Source of the DNA: a virus
Direction: 5' to 3' (one strand)
Virus record (IMG/VR): IMGVR_UViG_3300044904_000040
Coordinates: 1-55,955 of that record
Length of the DNA: 55,955 nucleotides
In this document: piece after piece, positions 31,133 through 33,216 of the stretch
How positions within the stretch are numbered: position 1 is the stretch's first letter
Layout: every line of letters begins with the position of its first letter
Notes under the pieces: generated by a model
Database searches by the model: none
What the model was told of the DNA's origin: nothing
Seen by the model: only the letters and a program-made list of their open reading frames with translations
Translations under genes and position numbers: made by a program

Positions 31133-31261
31133 TCAGCGCCGGTGGACTGCTCGCCCTACCAACGTCCAGATGAACGCTCCACCGATCAGGGCTGCATAGG
31201 CGATGCGCAGCAGCGCGAGGTCGATCAATATCATCGCCAGCCGGACCGCGGTGCGGATCAT
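31133..31261 (-). CDS. Small single-pass membrane protein
   Basis: 42 residues, MIRTAVRLAMILIDLALLRI then AYAALIGGAFIWTLVGRAVH. Hydrophobic throughout with basic ends. The ATG overlaps the stop of the HNH gene (ATGA). Function unknown. Confidence 0.6.
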   Translation of the reverse strand: MIRTAVRLAMILIDLALLRIAYAALIGGAFIWTLVGRAVHRR

Positions 31262-31587
31262 GGCATTGCCTTCCCTGCGCGGATTGCTTCAGATTCCAGC
31301 CATAGTCGTTCCGCCGCCTGCAGCGGATCAATCCCCAGTGCTTGCCAGAACGCCCGCTCATCGCCGCGGGCATGCAGAGCGGTGTGGTCATCGGCGCACA
31401 TCGGCAGTGTCCAGTTGTCGCCGGCCTTTAGGCCGCGTGCTTTTGGGTCCGGCGAACAGGTCAGATGATGAACCTGAACATACTGCCACATGCAGACAAT
31501 ACACGGCTGGCTGGCCACGTAGGACATGTGCGCCTTGCTGCGGATGCGGCGCACCTTGAAGTTGGGCTGGTAGCTCATGGCAACCAT
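31258..31587 (-). CDS. HNH-type nuclease (Ref/DUF968-like)
   Basis: 109 residues. PCIVCMWQYVQVHHLTCSPD, then KARGLKAGDNWTLPMCADDH and TALHARGDERAFWQALGI form the CxxC...HH...G.k..DnwtlPlC..dH..lH pattern of zinc-supported HNH nucleases found in phage recombination modules (Ref- or DUF968-type). The start is either ATG 31587, overlapping the previous gene, or ATG 31578. Likely to cut recombination or replication intermediates; not proven. Confidence 0.75.
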   Translation of the reverse strand: MVAMSYQPNFKVRRIRSKAHMSYVASQPCIVCMWQYVQVHHLTCSPDPKARGLKAGDNWTLPMCADDHTALHARGDERAFWQALGIDPLQAAERLWLESEAIRAGKAMP

Positions 31588-32084
31588 CCCAGGGTAGCCG
31601 GCTGGCCCGGCGGGGTGCGGGGAAAATTTAGCTTGGCAAATTCGCCGTGGTGAATGATGGCGAGTTCATCATATGCTGCCGCAGCTTCTTCCTCGGTCGC
31701 GTAACCGTAACTACCGAATGATTTTCGCTTGATGATTATTTGCGCCCAGAAAGTGCCGTTTCGACGGTCCGGATAGACCCCTTTATAATTCTTGTGAGCG
31801 CGCTTTTTTGATGAGTTCATCACATTCCCGGCCTGATGACATACGCGAAGATTTCTTCGGCGGTTGTCAAGTCCATCACCGTTTATGTGATCTGTCACCA
31901 TCCCCTTCGGGGTTCCTGCCACTAAGCTGTGCATGTAAACCATAGGGCCGCGCCAGCCTGACATGAATGCGCGGGCGTATTTCGTATGTCTTCCTGAATT
32001 GAGCCACCACCTAAAGCCAGAAACAAGATATTCATCTTCGGCATCAATTTGCACAACTGCGCCGCAGAACAGAATGATGTTCAT
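31575..32084 (-). CDS. HNH homing endonuclease with AP2 domain
   Basis: 169 residues. HNH core: VYMHSLVAGTPKGMVTDHIN, GDGLDNRRRNLRVCHQAGN (His-Asn-His layout). AP2-like DNA-binding domain: KNYKGVYPDRRNGTFWAQII, GSYGYATEEEAAAAYDELAI. This is the standard free-standing homing endonuclease layout. The last 14 residues (RTPPGQPATLGWLP) look like the end of the methyltransferase just upstream (RTPDGQFPTLGWLK). The gene's DNA is more AT-rich than its neighbours, so it looks inserted. Confidence 0.9.
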   Translation of the reverse strand: MNIILFCGAVVQIDAEDEYLVSGFRWWLNSGRHTKYARAFMSGWRGPMVYMHSLVAGTPKGMVTDHINGDGLDNRRRNLRVCHQAGNVMNSSKKRAHKNYKGVYPDRRNGTFWAQIIIKRKSFGSYGYATEEEAAAAYDELAIIHHGEFAKLNFPRTPPGQPATLGWLP

Positions 32085-32665
32085 TTAAGCCATCCTAATG
32101 TGGGGAATTGACCGTCAGGTGTTCTTCGCCACACCAGCCAACAGTAGGCTATGCTGCCATTCTGCGCTGGCACATCGGTGCCGCCGGGCGGCATCGACAC
32201 GCGACTTGAGTGAACCCAGATGTGAGACAGTCCCGTATTTTGGAAAAAAGTGCGCCTTTTCTGGCCCTCAAGCCACGCGAGGCGCTGCAAAACGATGACT
32301 TTGCCGGGCACCACGTCGAGCGCGCGCTCCACGAATTGCTGCGCGAGGGAGAACGGCGGGTTGAACACGCAATTCGTGATACCCTTCAGCCTCTCGCGCA
32401 CATTCTCGATCGGTCCCAGGAAGTCCATCACTTCATAGCGGTCGGCGCGCTGGCGCAGGTCGGATCCGTAGCAGGTCAGCCCGGCCGCCTGGAACCGGCG
32501 CGGAATGTTGCCGCCACCGCACGCCGGGTCGTGGCTGCGGCCCACGATCGGCTCCGCGGCAAGCATTGCGTCCACGCAGGCGGCGCTCTCCACATACCAA
32601 CCGTCGTCGGCCTTCTCATAGCCGGATGATCTTGCATTGCCTTTGCTCAAAACATGGGCTCCCAT
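32081..32665 (-). CDS. DNA N6-adenine-type methyltransferase
   Basis: 194 residues. SAM-binding motif I-like HDPACGGGNI (about 45-54) and catalytic NPPF in TNCVFNPPFSLAQQFVERAL, with an order motif I before NPPF. A small class I methyltransferase, probably protecting phage DNA or marking it. The start at ATG 32665 overlaps the RuvC-like gene by 19 bases. The final residues RTPDGQFPTLGWLK are echoed in the next gene. Confidence 0.8.
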   Translation of the reverse strand: MGAHVLSKGNARSSGYEKADDGWYVESAACVDAMLAAEPIVGRSHDPACGGGNIPRRFQAAGLTCYGSDLRQRADRYEVMDFLGPIENVRERLKGITNCVFNPPFSLAQQFVERALDVVPGKVIVLQRLAWLEGQKRRTFFQNTGLSHIWVHSSRVSMPPGGTDVPAQNGSIAYCWLVWRRTPDGQFPTLGWLK

Positions 32666-33216
32666 TTTTTCTTCGGATCGTTGACGATTTGCTGTGCGAA
32701 GCGCAGCAGCACCAGCGCATCGCCAACGTCATGCGTGAGCGGGTCGTAGCCTTGCTCATGGCACCAACCCATCACCGCCAGCTTTGCGTTCTTGCTGCCG
32801 TCCAGCCACATTTTCTCGGGCCTCTTGCCGTCAATCGTTTTGCCCGGATACCGTGGATTTCGGATTGCAAAAGTTGACCGGCCCAGCACAGCTTTTCGGG
32901 CTTGCATTTCGTTCGCCACCATGACCGGCACGTTCATGTCATAGGCGACAAGCTCAGTGATGGTCTGCACGCCGCCCAACGCCCTGGCGGCTGTTTGCGC
33001 ATCTCGGAACAACGCCATGCAAAAGACGATCAGTTCCGGGTCGTGGTCTTCGATCTTTTTTTCGACTGCATTGCGGCAGGCTGCATAGAGCATCCCAAGG
33101 TCTTTCATGCCCGGGAATGCCATCAGCCCGTAAGCTGGAATGGGCGTGCCATTGCTGCACGCCCATCCCACATCCCGCGTCGAAAGATCGAGAGTCATGA
33201 TTCTCGATATCGACAT
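32647..33216 (-). CDS. RuvC-like Holliday junction resolvase
   Basis: 189 residues from ATG 33216, behind AAGGG. RNase H-like fold: MTLDLSTRDVGWACSNG gives the first acidic residue. AARALGGVQTITELVAYDMN and HDVGDALVLLRFAQ (C-terminal Asp residues) match phage RuvC-like enzymes. At the second acidic site the expected Glu appears as Cys (ELIVFCMALFRD), which may change or weaken catalysis. Probably resolves branched DNA before packaging. Confidence 0.75.
   Translation of the reverse strand: MSISRIMTLDLSTRDVGWACSNGTPIPAYGLMAFPGMKDLGMLYAACRNAVEKKIEDHDPELIVFCMALFRDAQTAARALGGVQTITELVAYDMNVPVMVANEMQARKAVLGRSTFAIRNPRYPGKTIDGKRPEKMWLDGSKNAKLAVMGWCHEQGYDPLTHDVGDALVLLRFAQQIVNDPKKKWEPMF

Follow-up and report, generated by a model that had tools for sequence, protein, structure and literature searches.

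A phage HNH-AP2 homing-type gene that probably replaced the end of a DNA methyltransferase gene and kept the displaced end as its own C terminus

The window analysed here is the whole 55,955-nucleotide stretch of a viral record (IMG/VR IMGVR_UViG_3300044904_000040), and the features described lie on its minus strand. A DNA methyltransferase gene (32081..32665, 194 aa; phrog_799, E 5.5e-45), an HNH-AP2 homing-type endonuclease gene (31575..32084; HNH_3, E 1.2e-6; phrog_99, E 1.4e-30) and a DUF968 gene (31258..31578; PF06147, E 9.8e-12) follow one another in that order. They are joined by two ATGA stop/start overlaps, one from the methyltransferase to the HNH gene (32081..32084) and one from the HNH gene to the DUF968 gene (31575..31578), which we infer couple translation of the three genes. 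The preceding gene of the operon encodes a RuvC-like protein (32647..33216; phrog_159, E 2.5e-8) and is a neighbour outside the inserted element inferred below. The DUF968 ORF was listed with a start at 31587; relatives align from M4, at 31578, and the start used here was taken from the alignment to L021. An ATGA overlap with the preceding gene, whichever that gene is, is kept in the DUF968 relatives L140 and L141. Past the AP2 domain the HNH ORF lacks its own stop codon; the one it uses is supplied by a C-terminal tail, overlaps the DUF968 start and is inferred to be the native methyltransferase stop.

HNH_3 was the only domain detected by Pfam in the window HNH protein; the Pfam AP2 model was not reached, and relatives match it weakly. 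A Foldseek search with the predicted structure matched the AP2 domain 7et5 and, weakly, I-HmuI (1u3e), and the model overlays on the TEM1 AP2 domain at 1.6 Å over 65 columns. The catalytic motif is present, with D65, H66, N78 and N87 invariant across 27 rows of the alignment. The protein has the HNH motif and the AP2 domain of the HNH-AP2 homing endonuclease family; cleavage and inheritance by conversion are not shown. Its core, as delimited by the ends of relatives and by third-position GC content (GC3), comprises codons 1–155 (31620..32084), ends AKLNFP and is GC-poor.

Beyond the core, codons 156–169 (31578..31619) encode RTPPGQPATLGWLP, which closely resembles the last 14 residues of the methyltransferase, RTPDGQFPTLGWLK (codons 181–194, 32084..32125). 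The earlier note had reported that 10 of 14 residues are identical between these two stretches and that the DNA encoding them is diverged and unlike in GC content, and both observations hold. In particular, 21 of 42 bases are identical, GC is 0.76 in the HNH-fused tail versus 0.45 in the methyltransferase tail, and of ten same-residue codons only two, GGA and TGG, are the same. The local alignment score of the tails, 52, was reached by none of 20,000 shuffles (maximum 43), and the top score among 3,583 comparisons of mispaired flanks from other HNH loci was 44. The resemblance is thereby confirmed as a real observation.

Relatives of the methyltransferase, all at 49% identity or lower, typically finish in tails of the G-x-P-x-x-G-W-L type at the loci fetched by methyltransferase searches. 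The nearest, L060, ends HGHSGSPVIGWLP; xW[LIF] occurs within the last 60 residues in 54 of 88 distinct C-termini, and GWLP in six of the 88. HNH-AP2 relatives usually end in FA-x-LN(F) plus a few residues. The same 14-residue C terminus in HNH-AP2 relatives from other settings would have refuted the scar reading set out below; a methyltransferase-type tail was found in none of 106 closed ORFs (99 distinct C-termini), two of which carry a chance W[LIF] in the last 20 residues, and the best tail score was 23. In the AlphaFold2 model of the methyltransferase (pLDDT 85.6) the final strand spans residues 174–180 and the tail follows directly, and the HNH model is confident through the AP2 helix (131–149) and falls to a block mean pLDDT of 52 beyond residue 160. 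Thus, from the tail type of the methyltransferase family, its absence from HNH-AP2 relatives and the structure models, we conclude that the C-terminal tail of the HNH protein is a methyltransferase end. That this tail is a functional part of the nuclease, recruited for regulation or binding rather than left as a scar, could be argued from its being in frame and still recognisable. Such a role is highly improbable given the low predicted confidence past the AP2 domain, the absence of the tail from the 106 relatives and the finding, described below, that the extra segment at other loci is the end of a different gene each time.

Composition separates the two copies. GC3 is 0.73 in the methyltransferase gene, 0.29 in its last 14 codons, 0.52 in the HNH core, 0.79 in the HNH tail and 0.70 in the DUF968 gene; 70 of 8,126 host windows of 14 codons are as GC3-poor as the methyltransferase tail, and sliding GC drops between about 31620 and 32160. 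When a third-position likelihood ratio for HNH-like versus host-like codons is accumulated from the C-terminal end of the methyltransferase, its maximum lies at codon 180, and a full codon model has its maxima at codons 172 (9.62) and 136 (9.68); with the models peaking at different codons, the upstream, methyltransferase-side limit of the foreign stretch remains unresolved. The HNH tail is host-like in both models (-3.1 and -4.2). The comparison of GC and codon use that had been proposed as a check therefore finds the HNH-fused copy host-like and the methyltransferase copy HNH-like at third positions. On the simplest reading, 31578–31619 would be the resident methyltransferase end, an assignment with which its low pLDDT is also in keeping, and 32084–32125 would have arrived with the HNH core. 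The putative inserted element, replacement tail plus core, would then measure about 506 bp (31620..32125), limits that rest on composition and homology and are uncertain on the methyltransferase side. The foreign origin of 32084–32125 is an inference from composition and divergence, no donor having been identified.

An empty site, with this methyltransferase adjoining DUF968, was not found by blastn or tblastn in phages, viral contigs, prokaryote contigs or 385 genomes of one class. Since no relative with an intact methyltransferase-DUF968 junction was found, the call of the native copy rests on composition and position. Against 88 distant methyltransferase tails, none from a close uninvaded relative, the HNH-fused tail scores higher in 47 cases and lower in 25. 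The independent contig L211 (the same as L225/L230) carries at 1821–2902 a methyltransferase of the same family with an HNH-AP2 gene immediately behind it and no scar, possibly a donor-type arrangement.

One alternative is a local origin of both copies, in which the methyltransferase 3' end was duplicated at insertion or repair, as a target duplication, and the copies then diverged with no foreign tail involved. The lack of a donor leaves room for this, and the window tails are more like each other (52) than like the tail of any relative (best 38 and 36, L062). We nevertheless think it unlikely: the tails share 50% of bases against 71% of residues, and a plain duplication would not yield a GC-poor, HNH-like copy in the methyltransferase beside a host-like one in the nuclease.

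We give virtually no weight to a self-splicing intron or intein whose splice-site features would produce the likeness. A similar 11-residue likeness at the insertion in the ShiLan methylase was first taken as a possible intron sign, in the accessible part of that report (PMC11855218). At the window, however, no Rfam intron class was matched apart from one chance match at E 0.99, none was found in nine loci, and Pfam detected no splicing domain in the HNH protein. Moreover, both ORFs are complete with stop/start overlaps, and removal of an intron is unnecessary for either protein.

The reading we consider likely, drawn from the sequence without any enzyme assay, is that an HNH homing gene entered the end of the methyltransferase gene and supplied a diverged replacement for it, with the native end surviving as a scar joined to the nuclease. 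The entry point of the HNH-AP2 gene would lie in the last ~15 codons of the methyltransferase gene. There the nuclease, or an ancestor of it, is inferred to have cut the resident end, and repair would have copied the donor gene end together with the HNH ORF by homology on the methyltransferase side. Closure on the far side may have occurred at the break without homology, leaving the resident end behind. With a diverged 3' end placed ahead of the nuclease ORF, the methyltransferase would have stayed whole at 194 codons, and the displaced resident end would now encode the last 14 residues of the nuclease and its stop. The diverged replacement end may also resist the nuclease; such protection is plausible, though not shown, for strongly diverged pairs (the window and the first of two cases at L200). 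The observed parts of this scheme are the two tails and the family they belong to, the change in composition, the junctions, and six comparable scars at 3' and 5' gene ends around other HNH-AP2 genes. The earlier note had already read the arrangement as a scar in which an HNH element brought a foreign 3' end and the native end became fused to the HNH protein, and the tail family, the third positions and these six further scars support it.

These scars came from a comparison of 183 distinct HNH-AP2 genes with their translated flanks. A 3' test set whatever follows the AP2 core against the 30 C-terminal residues of the gene upstream (144 testable cases; 3,583 mispaired controls), and a 5' test set whatever precedes the HNH start against the 30 N-terminal residues of the gene downstream (146 testable cases; 3,631 mispaired controls). 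This stricter form was adopted because the first null contained high-scoring low-complexity pairs. Scores of at least 44 were obtained four times in the 3' test and four times in the 5' test, versus 0.04 and 0 expected from mispaired flanks. One of the eight matches, L299, is of low complexity and was rejected as a copy; the seven kept on inspection are the window and six further scarred HNH-AP2 genes in five contigs, all of them uncultured viral contigs. As a control, 811 non-HNH ORFs from the same loci gave scores of at least 44 in six of 1,077 tests; inspection showed these to be four low-complexity matches in GC-rich sequence (two of them from a single ORF that scored in both tests), one HNH-flanked gene and one pair of paralogues. 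Uncurated Fisher p values versus this control are 0.003 for 8/290 and 0.009 for 7/290. In cultured phages, no scar was seen in the 18 HNH regions scanned.

Two of the six scars lie at 3' ends. At L294 the HNH protein ends LLNF followed by RRVNDELMAEARRNPLPSDEPEEPE and a stop, against YRRVNEELMAEARRNPLPHDGDASGD and a stop at the end of the upstream gene, and ATGA leads into the next gene; the copy was recovered independently by a protein search of its record (22 residues, 77%). The L294 gene is absent from the comparator G010 (184,953 bp), and phage records contained no relative of it and none of the gene downstream at L330. At L287 an orphan TINFSQRVRDLP lies downstream of the HNH gene. The other four are mirror images at 5' ends. 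At L200, MIVLCRICQIRRVYGRFRDCL was left upstream and MTVLCKLCQIRRVYGRFEICL heads the downstream gene, and a second case there (MTHCPHCGKS / MKKCPHCGQL) is the weakest of the kept scars, with a score of 46. At L317, MSESPFRPAAKEA continues in frame into an HNH gene without a nearby start codon of its own and MTESPFRPAAKEA heads an ATPase gene, and at L330 the pair is ALLKLTDEE / ALSKLTDEE. On our reading, the nuclease would be using the displaced end as its own stop in the window and L294 and as its own start in L317. A further scar is likely at L321, where 11 of 11 residues and four of 11 codons are identical and which the formal 5' test missed owing to a short downstream ORF, and possible at L345 (score 41) and, as a displaced C terminus, at L339; the L339 HNH-AP2 ORF (1818–2759) has a resolvase-type HTH tail and lies directly behind a resolvase gene.

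Other candidates were rejected as copies: L258 as a tandem HNH, L259 and L315 for want of real likeness, and the flank match of L150 (= L250) for low complexity. By eye, the ATPase gene that directly follows the HNH-AP2 gene of L299 resembles the L317 target. Several records hold more than one such gene, with five HNH-AP2 matches each in G400 and G402 (loci L212 and L170) and three in the record of L200, one with an internal stop. At L199 (2369–3319), a 316-aa HNH ORF carries a sigma-70 region 4 domain as its C terminus (E 1.4e-18).

The mirror-image cases weigh against a tandem of methyltransferase genes in which the HNH gene replaced all of the second gene except its 3' end. Such a history would be expected to leave the same final picture, and phage gene pairs do exist, for example p096 and p097 of phage 16-3. 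Yet no same-family tandem occurs among the methyltransferase loci listed, and insertion into a single gene accounts for the 5' cases as well; we regard a tandem as very doubtful. For end replacement by insertion, the further loci also limit what divergence can mean. DNA identity between the copies is close to 90% at both L294 and L287, and nine pairs together contain 89 degenerate codons for shared residues, 43 of them identical. Universal recoding of the copies was rejected for the closeness of the L294 and L287 copies in DNA, and these two figures together mean that divergence as evolved immunity is not general.

Whether the window represents a class is, in our judgement, evenly balanced. 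Some phage HNH-AP2 homing genes would then be gene-end-replacement elements that enter the first or last 10–25 codons of a gene, keep it whole with a diverged end that also protects against self-cleavage, and take their start or stop from the end they displaced. They would parallel, in phages, the fungal atp6-type elements and would act at both gene ends. Such a route would show how a homing gene without an intron or intein can enter a gene itself, and not just an intergenic gap, without destroying it. It predicts that the displaced end marks where the nuclease cut and that the diverged end is why its own genome is spared, so that sequence could reveal the target sites of HNH-AP2 nucleases not yet characterised. 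Unusual extensions at the C or N terminus of annotated HNH genes and local protein chimeras at phage gene ends would be explained as well. Separately, at L150 (2228–3370; also L151, L228 and L250) a deoxynucleotide monophosphate kinase gene contains an in-frame HNH-AP2 sequence, with PF21448 matched in two stretches of the kinase and no splicing domain seen.

As far as the accessible portions of the papers cited here extend, the gene-end architecture is already known in fungal mitochondria and a related one in a phage methylase, and the phage HNH-AP2 version and the 5' cases are unreported in the literature searched. We came across no description of a phage homing gene replacing the end of another gene, subscription journals being mostly outside the scope of the search. 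The seg and mob genes of T4-like phages are free-standing, and they spread, as is inferred for the window nuclease, when breaks are repaired and their flanks are co-converted; they differ in being intergenic and cleaving hundreds or thousands of bases away, and the available text describes no displaced gene end (PMC2988022). The HNH-AP2 homing genes of phage ICP1 and its relatives share the N-terminal HNH and C-terminal AP2 arrangement, with no gene-end copy described in the part of the source at hand (PMC10448857).

The ShiLan domain, an HNH insertion in an actinophage DNA methylase, is closer. The first 11 in-frame residues of the insert resemble the residues after the insertion site, a likeness left unexplained in the sections available (PMC11855218). 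As at the window, an HNH gene lies within a phage methylase gene, the likeness is stronger in protein than in DNA and an intron or intein is not shown. ShiLan differs in that the internal insertion is read through in frame, the HNH gene lies in another frame with its own stop, and there is no gene-end replacement in the description consulted (PMC11855218). Flank copying could possibly underlie the 11-residue likeness, for which we have no test here.

The nearest parallel comes from fungal mitochondria, where the portions of PMC3630166 available to us describe endonuclease elements with C-terminal duplications in Allomyces atp6 and in Glomus atp6, atp9, cox2 and nad3, one atp6 C-terminus pair being 63.5% identical at the DNA level and 91% at the protein level. 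The phage cases differ from them in the HNH-AP2 nuclease, in the fusion of the native end to its C terminus, with an ATGA overlap, in the 5' mirror images and in the lack of an uninvaded relative, whereas the fungal nucleases are of the LAGLIDADG or GIY-YIG type, act in mitochondria and are backed by uninvaded related genomes and RT-PCR (PMC3630166). In both, an endonuclease ORF sits in the end of a gene, with a diverged substitute C terminus on the gene and the native C terminus downstream, and in some fungal cases the element ORF (mORF) is in phase with the gene (PMC3630166). Two marks of the fungal type are present at the window: a copy of the host gene end on each side of the endonuclease ORF, and divergence between the gene-joined and displaced copies that is mostly synonymous (10/14 residues, 21/42 bases).
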